Shown in pieces: positions 42,231 to 48,936 of a stretch of DNA of 61,034 bases (position 1 is its first letter; each line of letters opens with the position of its first letter). The notes under the pieces are model-generated. The model did not search any database. It was not told the origin of the DNA and saw only the letters and a list, made by a program, of their open reading frames with translations. Origin of the DNA: an uncultured Ignavibacteria bacterium (GTDB lineage: Bacteria > Bacteroidota > Ignavibacteria > Ch128b). The position numbers and the translations under genes were made by a program. The stretch is from NCBI GenBank assembly GCA_937944105.1, contig CALDZP010000036.1, forward strand, positions 1-61,034. Reading direction: 5' to 3'.

Positions 42231-44525
42231 ATGAAAGAAGAAGAGAAAATTTTATATGGATTTGGAGAAACAAAAAGAATTGTATCTGTTCAACAGATAT
42301 CGTCAAAAGAAATGCGAATTTATATTAGAGATGGTGAAAAAGTAAAATTCGTAGACAAACGATTCTATCCTTTCTTTTTTGCTTCTGATGATTCACTCCT
42401 ACCGTCTTTCGATGGGATTTATTGGAAAAAAAGGTTAATGGGGGATGAGTTCTATAAGTTCATTTTTGCTTTTGAAACATGGTCGGATATGAATAAAGCA
42501 ATAAGAATGATTGCAAAGAGATTGGGTAGACCAATAACTGGTAAACAAAGATTTAAAGAAATCTATGTTAATTATGAACCGATTACTCAGTTTTTAGTAC
42601 AGAGTGGTGAAACTCTTTTTAAGGGAATGAGATATGATGACCTTAATATTTTATACTTAAAAGTACTTGCCATTATCGAAAATAATACAATATTTCACTC
42701 CAGATATTTTAATCAAATTTTTGCAATAGCTCTTGCTGATAATAATGGTTGGAATAAATTAATTTATAGAAAAACAAAATCGATAACAGAGAAAGATATC
42801 TTACTAGAATTTGCTAAGATAATTCAAGAAAAAGATTCTGATTTAATTATCGGTTTTGATGTTATAAATGAGTTAGTTTATCTTAATTCAAGATTTGAAA
42901 ATTATAATCTTAATTTGCCAATTGGTCGGGATGGATCCAGTATGTTCGTTGATGTAATAAATAAGATTAGAGTTGGAGAAAGATTTGCTCCATCTATTAT
43001 GATTTCTGGAAGGCACATCGTTGATTTATTGCAAATGCTATCTCTTTCTAAAACTTTGACGCGGGAATTAGATGATTTATCTATCCAGAATGTTACGAAA
43101 TTTTTTGGGATAGAAATTCCAGAATATGAACCCATCGAGGATTCAAAAATACCATTAACTGCAGATAGAAACCCTGAGCAGTTATACAAAAAATTAAACT
43201 CAGAGATTCAAATTATCAGTGAGCTCAGTAATCAATTGCTTCCTCAATATTTTTATCAAGCTCAATTTGTACCTATGAATTTTGATCAAATAATATACAG
43301 TGGAATCTCATCGAAAATTGAACTTTTAATGGTAAGAGAATATTTGCGTAAAAGACATTCTATCCCAGTTCCTAATGAGCGAGTCTCATTAACTGGTGGA
43401 TATGCCGATGTTTTTTATCGTGGTTTGTTTGATAGAATTGTATATGCTGATGTTGAATCACTATATCCATCAATTATCATAAATGAGAAAATTTCCCCTT
43501 CTTCGGATAAGCTTCAGGTATTTTTAAAGCTCATTACAATTCTGACCAGGGAAAGACTAAAATATAAAAGAATGAGAGATCAATCGAAAAATAATACTCT
43601 AAAAAAGCATTATGATATTATTCAAAATGCTTATAAAATTTTGATTAATTCGTTTTATGGTTATTTAGGTTTTTCGGATGGCATTTTTAATGATTTCAAA
43701 AAATCTAATGAAGTAACTATTAAGGGACAGGAATTACTTAAAAAATTGATTCGAGAGTTTCAAAAAAGAGGTTGTCTTGTAATTGAAGTTGATACTGATG
43801 GTTTATATATATCACCGCAGAAAGAAATCACTGAAGATGAAGAAAAAATGTTAGTTGAAGAAGTTAATCGATCAATCCCAGCGGGAATAAATTTAATTTT
43901 TGGTGGAAGGTACAAACGAATGTTAAGTTATGAAAAGAAAAATTATGCTTTATTAACTTATGACGATAACCTGATCATTAAAGGAAGCGCATTAATCTCA
44001 AAAAGTATTGAGAATTATGCTTTAAATTTTATCAAAGAGTGTATTAGATGTATTATTACCGATAATATTAATCTTATTCCTAATTTGTATATCAAATTAA
44101 GATCTGATCTACAAAATCTTAGGATCAATATTATGGATTTAGCTAAAACAGAAATATTAAGAGACTCATATCAACAATATGACGAAGCAGTAAAAAGCGG
44201 TCGTAGGCAAAGAAGTGCTGCATATGAGCTTGCATATAAATATTTCGGTGATAAGTTTTATCCAGGGATGAAAATTGTGTATTATATTACAGGTAATGAT
44301 CCTAATGCTAAAGTATTTGAAAATTGTGAATTGGTTGAATTTTTTAATCCCAATATTCCAAATGTTAATATACCGTATTATTTAAGAAGATTGGATGAAT
44401 ATATTTCAAGATTTGAAGTCTTCTTTACAAAAGAAGATTTTAATGCATTGTTTCCAAAAGAAAATGGATTTATTTTTGATACTAAACCAAAAGTCATAAA
44501 CTCAGTTATAAAAGATCAAAATTGA
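42231..44525 (+). CDS. Family B DNA polymerase with degenerate exonuclease domain
   Basis: 764 residues. Polymerase motifs are intact: motif A DVESLYPSI (407-415), motif B KILINSFYGYLG (469-480) and motif C EVDTDG (519-524). The N-terminal half should carry a DEDDy exonuclease. From the wider bacterial family I expect a DIET-like Exo I after GMRFDDL, an N-x-x-x-F-D Exo II and a Y-x-x-x-D Exo III. Here the first reads KVLA (144-147), the second GFDVINELVYL (208-218), and the third region LSKTLTREL (272-280). None is intact, so it likely lacks proofreading. The family is widespread in bacteria of this clade, and the role is probably damage tolerance or repair. It overlaps the MFS gene by four bases. 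Confidence 0.9.
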   Translation: MKEEEKILYGFGETKRIVSVQQISSKEMRIYIRDGEKVKFVDKRFYPFFFASDDSLLPSFDGIYWKKRLMGDEFYKFIFAFETWSDMNKAIRMIAKRLGRPITGKQRFKEIYVNYEPITQFLVQSGETLFKGMRYDDLNILYLKVLAIIENNTIFHSRYFNQIFAIALADNNGWNKLIYRKTKSITEKDILLEFAKIIQEKDSDLIIGFDVINELVYLNSRFENYNLNLPIGRDGSSMFVDVINKIRVGERFAPSIMISGRHIVDLLQMLSLSKTLTRELDDLSIQNVTKFFGIEIPEYEPIEDSKIPLTADRNPEQLYKKLNSEIQIISELSNQLLPQYFYQAQFVPMNFDQIIYSGISSKIELLMVREYLRKRHSIPVPNERVSLTGGYADVFYRGLFDRIVYADVESLYPSIIINEKISPSSDKLQVFLKLITILTRERLKYKRMRDQSKNNTLKKHYDIIQNAYKILINSFYGYLGFSDGIFNDFKKSNEVTIKGQELLKKLIREFQKRGCLVIEVDTDGLYISPQKEITEDEEKMLVEEVNRSIPAGINLIFGGRYKRMLSYEKKNYALLTYDDNLIIKGSALISKSIENYALNFIKECIRCIITDNINLIPNLYIKLRSDLQNLRINIMDLAKTEILRDSYQQYDEAVKSGRRQRSAAYELAYKYFGDKFYPGMKIVYYITGNDPNAKVFENCELVEFFNPNIPNVNIPYYLRRLDEYISRFEVFFTKEDFNALFPKENGFIFDTKPKVINSVIKDQN

Positions 44526-45727
44526 AAAAGTTTTCAGGAAATATAGCTTTAATTTTTATTGTTGTCCTAATTGATTTAATTGGTTTTGGAATTATAATTC
44601 CAATCCTTCCAAGGTATTCTGAAACGCATTTTGGAGCAAATGAAATTCAAATAGGATTATTAATAGCATCATTTTCGTTTTTTCAATTTCTATCTTCACC
44701 AATCCTAGGGAAATTAAGTGATAGAATTGGAAGAAAACCTGTGATAACTTTTTCCCTGGTTCTTTCATCAATCAGTTATGTTATTTTTGCTTTTGCTCCA
44801 AATTATTGGATTGCTTTATTCTCGCGTTGCATAGGTGGAATAGGTGGAGGTAGTATTTCTGCAGCACAAGCATATATAGCGGATGTAACTGAAAAGTCGG
44901 AAAGAACTAAAGGGATGGGACTAATTGGCACTGCTTTTGGACTTGGATTTGTATTTGGTCCTTTTATTGGTGGTATGTTATCAACATTTGGATATATTGT
45001 TCCAAATCTTTCAGCTGCAGGCTTTTCCTTTATTGCTTTAATTCTAACAAGAATTTTTTTAACTGAGTCATTAAAAAATAAAACTCAGTTTAGTTTGAAA
45101 CTAAAAGATTTAACTTTTTCATTTGAAACAACAAGATTCAATAAAGCTTTTTCTAATGTTTATGTTGGTAAATTTTTACTAATTTTTTTCTTAATTACTT
45201 TTTCCATTGCTAATACTTATGGTGTAATTCCAATCTTTGCATATAGATATTTACACTTTACAGATAGAGAAATTGGTTATATTTACGCAGTGATTGGAAT
45301 TATCGGTGTAATTTTTCAAGGTTATTTGATTGGAATATTAACAAGACAATTTGGTGAAAAAATAATCTTATTGGCAGGTATGACATTGATGTCTGTTGGT
45401 TTATTGTTCATTCCATTGACTGTCAAGTTATATTTAATGATGTGGTTTTTTGTGATTTTGATTTCGATAGGATTAGCTTTGATAAATCCAACTATATTAA
45501 GTTTAATTTCTAAATTAACTTCGCCTTTTGAACAGGGTGAAGTACTGGGGGTAAATCAATCGATGGGCTCACTCGGTAGAGTGATTGGACCTCTCTGGGG
45601 TGGAGTTGCGTTTAATACTTTTGGTTATGGTTATCCTTTTTGGACTGCTGGTATTTTTACTTTGATTGCTTTATATGTGGGTGTTATAAATTTTGCGAAA
45701 ATGAAAAAAAATAAAATTGAAATTTGA
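44522..45727 (+). CDS. MFS transporter, TetA/multidrug type
   Basis: 401 residues with 12 hydrophobic segments. The first has IVVLIDLIGFGIIIPILPRYSE, typical of the TetA/drug:H+ antiporter branch. Motif A between helices 2 and 3 is GKLSDRIGRKPVI (about 58-70), and the motif C-like GTAFGLGFVFGPFIGG (about 138-153) marks the antiporter 12-helix group. It probably exports drugs or metabolites by proton exchange; the substrate cannot be told. TTG start overlaps the polymerase gene end. No regulator is next to it. Confidence 0.9.
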   Translation: MKKFSGNIALIFIVVLIDLIGFGIIIPILPRYSETHFGANEIQIGLLIASFSFFQFLSSPILGKLSDRIGRKPVITFSLVLSSISYVIFAFAPNYWIALFSRCIGGIGGGSISAAQAYIADVTEKSERTKGMGLIGTAFGLGFVFGPFIGGMLSTFGYIVPNLSAAGFSFIALILTRIFLTESLKNKTQFSLKLKDLTFSFETTRFNKAFSNVYVGKFLLIFFLITFSIANTYGVIPIFAYRYLHFTDREIGYIYAVIGIIGVIFQGYLIGILTRQFGEKIILLAGMTLMSVGLLFIPLTVKLYLMMWFFVILISIGLALINPTILSLISKLTSPFEQGEVLGVNQSMGSLGRVIGPLWGGVAFNTFGYGYPFWTAGIFTLIALYVGVINFAKMKKNKIEI

Positions 45728-46732: not shown

Positions 46733-47318
46733 AATAAAACTCGCTCGTATTGTTTCAGATATTTTTATACCGATAACTTTTTCTGCTTTCATTAGTTTTT
46801 ACTTCCCGTTTCTTTTTACAAAAAATAATTCTGAATTTTTTTACAACTTTCTTTTGACTTTTCTTTCAACCGTTTTATTTCCTTTGATTTATTTCTTGTA
46901 TAAGCGAAAAAAAGGTGAAATAATAAATCGAGATGCTGTAATTAAAGAAGAAAGAAACAAGGTCTATTTATTTTCGATCGTTATATTTGCCTTTGCTTAT
47001 GTTATTTCAATTTTTATAAAATCCCCATTATTTGTTCAGATTTATCTTCTGAATTTTACTTTATCCACGTTTGGTGTTTTATTTATAAATAAACGAATTA
47101 AGATAAGCGTTCATTCAATGTCAGCTGCCGGGACATCATCAATTTTGCTTTTTGTTAATCCGCTTTTTTCAATGGTGTTATTTATTTTAACATTGTTTAT
47201 AATGTGGTCGAGGGTAACTCTTGGTGTTCATTCAGTTCGTGAAGTCATCTATGGAATGATCTATGGTTTTTGTGTAACTTTATTTACAACATTGATGGTT
47301 TTGAATTATGCAACTTAG
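46725..47318 (+). CDS. PAP2-like membrane protein with degenerate active site
   Basis: About 197 residues with five or six membrane segments. The last part reads RIKISVHSMSAAGTSSILL and SRVTLGVHSVREVIYG, which align with phosphatidic acid phosphatase motifs PSGH and SR-x5-H-x3-D. The proline-glycine before the first histidine is lost, and the final Asp is replaced by Glu, while Arg and His of the last motif remain. Activity on lipid or polyprenyl pyrophosphate is possible but uncertain. The start is not clear: TTG at 46725 overlaps the dusB stop, and the frame stays open to 46683. It overlaps the PolX-like gene by 11 bases. Confidence 0.7.
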   Translation: MNKIKLARIVSDIFIPITFSAFISFYFPFLFTKNNSEFFYNFLLTFLSTVLFPLIYFLYKRKKGEIINRDAVIKEERNKVYLFSIVIFAFAYVISIFIKSPLFVQIYLLNFTLSTFGVLFINKRIKISVHSMSAAGTSSILLFVNPLFSMVLFILTLFIMWSRVTLGVHSVREVIYGMIYGFCVTLFTTLMVLNYAT

Positions 47319-48936
47319 AGATGCACTTGAAGTACTTGAAGAGATCGCATTTTATCTTGAACTTAAAGGCGAAAATGTCTTTAAAGTTAATGCCTTTTAT
47401 AATGCTGTCAGAAATTTATCTAAACATGATATTTCACTTGAAGAAGCCTTTAGAAAAGAAATTATTCAAAACACTAAAGGTGTTGGAAAATCAATTCAAA
47501 ATGTTCTTCAAGAATTGCTCGTTGAAGGCAAATCATCTCTATTAAACGATTTAAAAAAAGAATTCCCAGAAGAAATTTACAGGCTTACACAAATTCGTGG
47601 ACTTGGAGCAAAGAAAATAAAAAAGCTTTATGAAGAATTAGGAATTTCAAACATTAATGAACTTGAACAGGCGTGTATCGAAAATAAGCTCTTAAAAATT
47701 CCTGGATTCGGCGAAAAGACTCAATCCTCAATCATAGAAAACATAAAGAAAATTAAAGATTATCAGGGTAAGCTACTTTTGCATTATGCTGATGATTTAG
47801 CGAACTCAATTTTAAGTGAAGCAAAAAAAATAGGAATAGAAAAAATTTTACCAACTGGTGAATTGAGACTTAGAACAAAAATAATCTCTTCTCTTGATTT
47901 TTTAATTTCTTATGATAAAAACATCGAAAAATTTTTGAAAAGTCAAAGTGCTAATAAAATAAAAGATGGCTTATATGAGTCTCAAACAAATGGAGTAAAG
48001 ATTAAATTTTATATAACGTCTGAAGATTTATTTAATTTTGATTTATTGAAAACCACTGGAACAACGAATTTTCTAAAAAGAATTTCCTTCTCAAACATTA
48101 AACCTCGAATCTTTAGTTCTGAATTGGAAATCTTCGAAACCTTAGGGTTGCCTTTTATTCCTCCTCAAGCGAGAGAAAACGACCAACTTGAATTGTTAGA
48201 ATATGATTTTCCAGATTTAAAAGATTTGAAAGGATTGATTCACATTCATTCGAACTACTCAGATGGTTCAAATTCAATTAAGGAAATTCTGGAATTTGCT
48301 GAAAGAAATAATTATGAATATGTTCTTCTATGTGATCATTCTAAATCGGCGTTTTATGCAAATGGTTTGGATGAAGTTAGATTGCGTGAGCAGTGGAAAG
48401 AAATTGAAAGCTTAAATTCTAATTCCAGGTATGTTAAAATTTTGAAAGGAATTGAATGTGATATATTACCCGATGGTTCACTGGATTTTGACGATAAAAT
48501 TTTATGTCAATTTGATTGTGTAATTGCTTCAGTTCATTCTAAATTTAAAATGACAAAACAAGAGATGACAAAAAGAATTACCTCTGCATTAAGGAATAAG
48601 TATGTTAAGATTCTTGGTCATCCTACAGGAAGGTTGCTACTTTCAAGAGAACCTTATCCACTGGATGTTGATGAAATAATTAATGTGGCAGCTCAAGAAG
48701 GAAAATCAATTGAGCTAAATTGTAATCCACACAGGTTAGATCTTGATTGGGAATACCATCAAAAAGCAAAGAGTCAAGGAATCAAAATTACCATTTCACC
48801 TGATGCTCATTCATTTGAAGATATGACTTATGTCAGGTATGGAATCGATATGGCTATAAAAGGCGGTCTTGAAAAATCAGATATAGTTAATTGTTTAAAT
48901 CTGAAAGAGTTTAAATCTAAATTTTGTAACAAATAA
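47308..48936 (+). CDS. PolX-like protein with inactivated polymerase site and intact PHP nuclease
   Basis: 542 residues with the PolX layout: N-terminal 8-kDa-like and helix-hairpin-helix region (QNTKGVGKSI, QIRGLGAKKI, KIPGFGEKT), nucleotidyltransferase palm (about 170-285) and PHP phosphoesterase (about 308-540). The palm should read GS-x-R-R...G-D-I-D and later carry a third aspartate, but here it is GELRLRTKIISSLDFL (184-199) and VKIKFYI (230-236): only one catalytic Asp remains. PHP ligands are all present: HIHSNYSDG (312-320), CDHS (342-345), GIECD (381-385), SVHS (409-411), GHP (437-439), NCNPH (471-475) and DAH (499-501). It is probably a nuclease, not a polymerase. Confidence 0.88.
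   Translation: MQLRDALEVLEEIAFYLELKGENVFKVNAFYNAVRNLSKHDISLEEAFRKEIIQNTKGVGKSIQNVLQELLVEGKSSLLNDLKKEFPEEIYRLTQIRGLGAKKIKKLYEELGISNINELEQACIENKLLKIPGFGEKTQSSIIENIKKIKDYQGKLLLHYADDLANSILSEAKKIGIEKILPTGELRLRTKIISSLDFLISYDKNIEKFLKSQSANKIKDGLYESQTNGVKIKFYITSEDLFNFDLLKTTGTTNFLKRISFSNIKPRIFSSELEIFETLGLPFIPPQARENDQLELLEYDFPDLKDLKGLIHIHSNYSDGSNSIKEILEFAERNNYEYVLLCDHSKSAFYANGLDEVRLREQWKEIESLNSNSRYVKILKGIECDILPDGSLDFDDKILCQFDCVIASVHSKFKMTKQEMTKRITSALRNKYVKILGHPTGRLLLSREPYPLDVDEIINVAAQEGKSIELNCNPHRLDLDWEYHQKAKSQGIKITISPDAHSFEDMTYVRYGIDMAIKGGLEKSDIVNCLNLKEFKSKFCNK

Follow-up and report, generated by a model that had tools for sequence, protein, structure and literature searches.

The window analysed here, the whole 61,034-nucleotide stretch of DNA from an uncultured Ignavibacteria bacterium, encodes a B-family DNA polymerase that has kept its polymerase site and whose proofreading activity, judged from its sequence, is almost certainly dead. 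The best reading of this protein is that of an active accessory polymerase without proofreading, which would plausibly serve in lesion bypass. By descent it belongs to bacterial PolB group G3, an assignment drawn from homologue alignment and trees. The larger result lies beyond the window: both activities of G3 polymerases have been lost recurrently and in order, with the proteins selectively kept, some of them as pseudo-polymerases. Neither the recurrence of exonuclease loss nor the subsequent loss of the polymerase site is within view from a single sequence.

The polymerase gene is a complete reading frame with exact limits (ATG at 42231, stop at 44525). The gene and its catalytic motifs are located as follows.

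42231..44525, + strand: B-family DNA polymerase, 764 amino acids, group G3 by descent, predicted exonuclease-dead
42660..42668, + strand: Exo I position, K144-V145-L146, against D-x-E in relatives (family alignment)
42858..42872, + strand: Exo II region, D210 (N in relatives) to E214 (D in relatives), one residue shorter (family alignment)
43191..43205, + strand: Exo III region, K321 (Y in relatives) to E325 (D in relatives) (family alignment)
43449..43466, + strand: motif A, D407 to Y412, intact (alignments)
43635..43658, + strand: motif B, K469 to Y476, intact (alignments)
43785..43802, + strand: motif C, E519-V-D-T-D-G524, intact and including the glutamate known from G3 and the N-terminal half of Pol epsilon
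43938..43946, + strand: KxY motif, K570 to Y572, intact (alignments)

Homologue alignments confirmed the initial annotation's reading of motifs A, B and C as intact, the kept polymerase residues being D407, Y412, K469, Y476, D521, D523 and K570; E519, the motif C glutamate that marks G3, was invariant in a 17-row alignment. Pfam searches returned DNA_pol_B at 85.9 bits and a weak match to DNA_pol_B_exo1 (30.1 bits) covering residues 185-271 only. The AlphaFold2 model of the window protein (mean pLDDT 87.7) contains the whole PolB fold. Its top structural matches were archaeal PolBs (Z about 28-30; KOD/9N-type about 28); E. coli Pol II reached Z 25.9 and the core of yeast Pol epsilon Z 24.9. 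By sequence, the nearest solved structures were archaeal PolBs of the KOD/Pab type. Named close relatives in the gene tree were Ignavibacteriales and Bacteroidota MAGs, and a genome search found the window protein to be the sole PolB in its own genome.

Relatives of the window protein usually carry LDIET, GHNxxxFDLP and YAxDD as Exo I, II and III, respectively. Alignment and structure prediction, both proposed in the initial annotation, agreed on the loss of the Exo I D-x-E beside the retained polymerase residues: K144 and L146 occupy the D and E places of LDIET, a register backed by the family alignment and by a profile alignment to Pyrococcus abyssi PolB, and K144-L146 lie within the first exonuclease strand of the model (residues 140-148). 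An alternative Exo I register, obtained with single-sequence phmmer, sets E150 and N152 opposite the archaeal D-x-E; it was rejected, the D-x-E being absent there too, so that it offers no rescue of the site. None of the four exonuclease carboxylates is identical to that of relatives, and two of the four positions are occupied by glutamate (E214 and E325). The earlier claim that all three exonuclease motifs are lost was right in its motif readings, with the one reservation that these two glutamates keep an acidic group and could leave trace exonuclease activity.

The state of the exonuclease site varies among the six genomes of the window's family (f1), all of which encode the protein as a full-length open frame with every polymerase motif intact. 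Read in the order Exo I first, Exo I second, Exo II, Exo III, the four carboxylate positions hold K, L, E, N (L003) and K, L, D, D (L004) in two further proteins of genus g1 and R, E, D, E in a protein of sister genus g3 (L005), and the site is fully intact in genus g2 (L006 and L007). The loss in all four g1 and g3 genomes, in differing ways, beside an intact g2, argues that it reflects neither chance nor sequencing error, and the different drift in each relative is as expected of an exonuclease site that has already ceased to work.

Bacterial PolB groups G1, G2 and G3 were defined, and the motif C glutamate was named for G3, by Kazlauskas et al. (2020; PMC7544198). A 2026 survey based on complete genomes (Timinskas et al., 2026; PMC12926913) describes G3 as uncharacterised, as the second largest bacterial PolB group and as present in all Chlorobi, and it credits G1 and G3 with a clamp motif and with conservation of both the exonuclease and the polymerase site. 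Chlorobi PolBs were full-length relatives of the window protein (34-36% identity) that fell inside the tree, their G3 label being taken from that survey and not from a labelled G3 reference set. The window protein shares with G3 (the EpsilonN-like clade) full-length homology, the motif C glutamate, the N-terminal, exonuclease and polymerase domains and an intact polymerase site. G3 as described in the survey has both sites conserved, whereas the exonuclease site of the window protein is lost and some relatives have lost the polymerase site as well. Since the described conserved exonuclease site is missing, with no carboxylate kept out of four, the window protein is, on present alignments, a variant inside the G3 clade and not a typical member of it. 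The literature examined, which lay outside supplementary files, preprints and most subscription journals, yielded no account of a G3 protein that lacks its exonuclease or polymerase site.

Membership in other PolB groups was rejected. The exonuclease is already known to be missing from the whole of bacterial group G2 (PolB2-like; PMC7544198; PMC12926913), and the exonuclease motifs of archaeal PolB2 and bacterial G2 (Dpo2) are lost as in the window protein. However, G2 proteins have a single aspartate in motif C, compared with the intact DTD of the window protein; a G2-like class profile, searched at E 1e-60, matched nothing in the window's genome (G000) or in the five others of f1, and no operon with an inactive RadA and an arCOG07300-like small helical protein surrounds the window gene. 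A second PolB of the G2/PolB2-like type with a single motif C aspartate (e.g., L021-L028) was found in many genomes of the class (83 of 391) and in no f1 genome out of six. E. coli Pol II (G1) is likewise a bacterial accessory PolB of the same fold, but it proofreads; the window protein scored 82.3 bits against a Pol II equivalog cut-off of 570, and its Exo II reads GFD (GHN in most relatives), as opposed to the GWN of Pol II.

Homologues were collected from 61 relatives, of which 19 gave a match, from f1 (six of six genomes), from 391 sampled genomes of the class (146 with some PolB match), from named genome records (462 relatives found, with 80 loci retained) and from viral contigs (19 loci). 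The named genomes were scanned with motif B and motif C patterns, a procedure biased towards genes with intact polymerase sites. Of 164 unique sequences, 157 were counted after incomplete ones (L110, L115, L117, L201, L217, L218 and L220) were dropped. A protein was scored as having lost its polymerase site when motifs A and C showed a replacement at one or more of their three metal-binding aspartates, and the most divergent sequences (L211-L216) were typed from a profile alignment. Both sites were intact in 114 of the 157 non-redundant homologues. The exonuclease site was lost in the other 43, of which 26 retained and 17 had also lost the polymerase site, and the converse state, an intact exonuclease beside a lost polymerase site, did not occur (0/157). 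The degree of polymerase loss varied, from a mere Asp to Glu change in motif A (L206) to much more degraded sites (L214-L216); G3 orthologues lacking both sites include L018, L019 and L206-L216.

These counts qualify the statement in the initial annotation that most bacterial family B polymerases proofread: it holds for the homologues typed here, 114 of 157 of which keep all four carboxylates, and for G1 and G3 as published, but the exonuclease-free group G2 is an exception in its entirety (PMC7544198; PMC12926913). Among the 43 rows with a lost exonuclease, 41 came from the window's class, which was also the most deeply sampled taxon, and two from Verrucomicrobiota. Both Verrucomicrobiota proteins had intact polymerase motifs; L093 keeps two of the four carboxylates and L108 none, its Exo III stretch being absent from the alignment. 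In the class sample, the 95 genomes typed comprised 53 with both sites intact, 25 with the exonuclease lost and 17 with both lost. This table includes L201, which lacks an aligned Exo I stretch, as exonuclease-lost; partial G3 matches (G100, G237, G309 and G355), a weak match (G179) and frame-split genes (G343, G358 and G382) stand outside it. Rows L109-L116 from viral contigs each had four of four carboxylates, L110 and L115 being incomplete, and L117 was without the exonuclease region. In L110 and L116 the profile match was interrupted in the polymerase domain near profile position 460 by ~24 extra residues.

INDEPENDENCE and order of the losses were read from trees made without the exonuclease-motif columns and the polymerase catalytic columns. 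A 69-row IQ-TREE phylogeny required a minimum of seven exonuclease and five polymerase changes, and a 46-row tree, in which the five longest rows were among those omitted, required at least six and four, respectively. In AU tests, a shared clade for the window's exonuclease-lost rows and the f3 (p 7e-5), f23 (p 3e-20) or f17 g53 (p 2e-6) ones was rejected. These results imply at least 6-7 independent exonuclease losses in the group, one of them in the window's own family, where g1 and g3 have lost the site and g2 has kept it. Change counts give no direction by themselves; the changes are read as losses because the reverse would require four catalytic residues to be regained together. Loss of the polymerase site was confined to lineages that had also lost the exonuclease site (f3, f17, f18 and f23). 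Among class genomes with a lost exonuclease, a G2 PolB was present in 13 of 17 with and 18 of 25 without polymerase-site loss, which does not support an association between the two (Fisher p 1.0).

Selection was estimated as dN/dS by NG86, with dS saturated in several pairs and infinite in two of 20. Intact pairs with finite dS gave values of 0.04-0.08, and exonuclease-lost pairs with usable dS gave 0.08-0.16, apart from one pair at 0.03 with saturated dS. The window protein yielded 0.127 against L003 and 0.176, with dS near saturation, against L004, and the pairs from f3 g26 that had lost the polymerase site gave 0.10-0.15. All of these genes, the last included, are under purifying selection, which establishes retention of the protein and is not proof of polymerisation. 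For the ratio of exonuclease-domain to polymerase-domain divergence, bin medians were 0.96-1.14 (256 intact pairs) and 1.48-1.97 (exonuclease-lost pairs), so that the exonuclease domain diverges ~1.7 times faster, relative to the polymerase domain, than in intact pairs. All six f1 exonuclease-lost pairs lay on the raised side, and single exonuclease-lost pairs of high identity dropped to 0.86-0.88. Where the polymerase site was also lost, the ratio was mostly about 1 or lower, as seen in the nine of 69 pairs with at least 50% polymerase identity. The ratios fit a relaxation of constraint first on the exonuclease domain and then on the polymerase domain, with the protein retained. Residue typing, selection and divergence between the domains together lend strong support to the initial annotation's view of the window protein as proofreading-dead.

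Taken as a whole, the explanation that we consider probable, with appreciable room for doubt, is that the window protein is a G3-derived accessory PolB with a competent polymerase centre and a dead exonuclease, which would perform extension without proofreading in repair or lesion bypass. Its ancestor would have been a proofreading G3 polymerase of an Ignavibacteria-type bacterium; with the polymerase centre competent and the exonuclease site dead, the exonuclease domain would now be structural only, and the enzyme would most likely extend primers, presumably at low fidelity, as a repair or lesion-bypass enzyme. In several other lineages the loss has extended to the polymerase site in full-length proteins that are still under purifying selection. 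Pol zeta and archaeal PolB2 offer an analogy, which would be one of action and not of descent, that makes the error-prone or lesion-bypass role suggested in the initial annotation plausible. Lesion bypass has been demonstrated for Dpo2 (Feng et al., 2020; PMC7390963), and the catalytic subunits of eukaryotic Pol zeta and Pol alpha also have an inactivated exonuclease domain (PMC7544198). Unlike the window protein, Pol zeta and Pol alpha are eukaryotic, have a B subunit and a metal-binding C-terminal domain, and belong to the Delta-like clade. A bacterial group with an eclipsed exonuclease domain, actinobacterial PolA2 (APEX), is described in PMC12926913, but it is an A-family polymerase, a single group and limited to one phylum. 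A second DnaE is present in f1 genomes, and in G002 a Y-family gene lies ~4 kb from it; in G000 the second DnaE is at a contig edge (C87:3-776) and there was no Y-family match, perhaps reflecting an assembly gap. Given this additional DnaE and the nearby Y-family gene in G002, lesion bypass need not fall to the window PolB.

The genes around the polymerase bear on a second explanation, in which the protein is an ordinary gap-filling accessory polymerase whose proofreading became dispensable by drift, with no part in lesion bypass. Two neighbours are of note.

44522..45727, + strand: MFS transporter gene with a 4-base overlap at the polymerase stop; conserved beside the polymerase gene in all five f1 neighbourhoods seen (g1 and g2)
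47308-48936, + strand: PolX-like gene with HHH and PHP domains, reading SSLDF where others have GDIDI, with the PHP histidine/aspartate motifs kept

The MFS gene and the polymerase are probably linked by position only. The listed neighbours of the window gene are a LysM transglycosylase, a TonB receptor, and the MFS, Dus, PAP2, PolX-like and phosphoribosyltransferase genes, the last four following MFS in g1 (PAP2-like in that listing). No SOS or repair operon was found in the f1 neighbourhoods, where the sole repair-type neighbour is the PolX-like gene, four genes downstream, and no repair partner was found in the conserved neighbourhoods of the families examined. The PolX polymerase aspartate motif is degraded also in those f1 relatives that have the region, including exonuclease-intact g2; a takeover of proofreading by PolX was not supported, as it is in the same state in g2, where it lies on another contig, and elsewhere. 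PolX proteins that have lost the polymerase residues and kept PHP are already in print (PMC12926913). Neighbours that are mostly housekeeping genes favour the drift explanation, as does the precedent of Pol I, about half of whose bacterial orthologues are without a proofreading site, in a largely phylum-specific pattern (PMC12926913). However, drift alone leaves unexplained the clustering of 41 of 43 exonuclease losses in one class, albeit the one sampled most deeply, and this explanation is regarded as possible and rather unlikely.

A further explanation, judged unlikely and weaker than the preceding one, is that the protein is an emerging or complete non-catalytic structural subunit, a scaffold on the clamp or fork like the C-terminal half of Pol epsilon, in which the lost exonuclease would mark the earliest visible stage and selection would no longer act on catalysis. 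Published accounts cover PolB2 proteins that are inactivated and the Pol epsilon half that is inactive (Rogozin et al., 2008, PMC2527604; Tahirov et al., 2009, PMC2669801; Makarova et al., 2014, PMC4104785). The latter (PMC2669801) has lost both sites and yet is kept, as are the polymerase-lost relatives of the window protein, but it is fused behind an active polymerase, whereas the bacterial proteins stand alone. In favour of this explanation are the 17 polymerase-lost homologues themselves, every one exonuclease-lost and the tested pairs under the selection noted above, as well as their surroundings and their C-terminal tails. In f3, f12, f18 and f23, polymerase-lost members included, the polymerase gene follows genes that we take, from reading their sequences by eye, to encode NfeD and stomatin/SPFH, with a presumed Maf gene on the other side in most. 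This shared upstream order marks the polymerase-lost genes as orthologues at one locus, and it is equal in lineages that have lost and kept the polymerase site. A C-terminal I-W-L end was found in 22 of 26 f3, nine of 12 f12, five of six f18 and all five f23 proteins, and in 14 of the 17 polymerase-lost proteins, preceded by an acidic linker (e.g., L010, L015, L018, L033, L051, L194, L199 and L208). From its sequence, this tail is possibly an interaction peptide, and one might guess at a candidate clamp binder. For the window's own family, though, the polymerase motifs are intact and the tail is absent in six of six members, which argues against a scaffold there.

It is very improbable that an altered site keeps the exonuclease working, with Glu substituting for Asp or a shifted acid, E150, contributing: E214 and E325 are acidic and the phmmer register places E150 opposite the first aspartate, but Exo I has lost its two carboxylates and Exo III its tyrosine, the remaining positions vary among family relatives so that nothing is conserved, and the whole domain has the accelerated divergence described above. 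Least probable of all is a decaying pseudogene, for which the fast evolution of the exonuclease domain might speak, and which was rejected on the open full-length frames in all six f1 genomes, dN/dS of 0.13-0.18 and the retention of all polymerase motifs.

With the accessory polymerase without proofreading as the preferred reading of the window protein, a broader and more tentative proposal, which we rate at clearly less than an even chance, is that G3 polymerases in this class pass repeatedly and in the same order from proofreading to proofreading-dead to catalytically dead yet selected forms, that, besides catalysis, they serve structurally at the clamp or fork, and that the window protein stands at the middle stage. 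The description of G3 as intact at both sites in the 2026 survey fails across the whole class. In its place is a natural series of orthologues, intact, exonuclease-lost and lacking both sites, many at one conserved locus, which lets the function of G3 and the path from polymerase to pseudo-polymerase be tested directly. If the repeated and ordered disarming is true, it would amount to a bacterial replay of the way in which an inactive module like the C-terminal half of Pol epsilon might originate.
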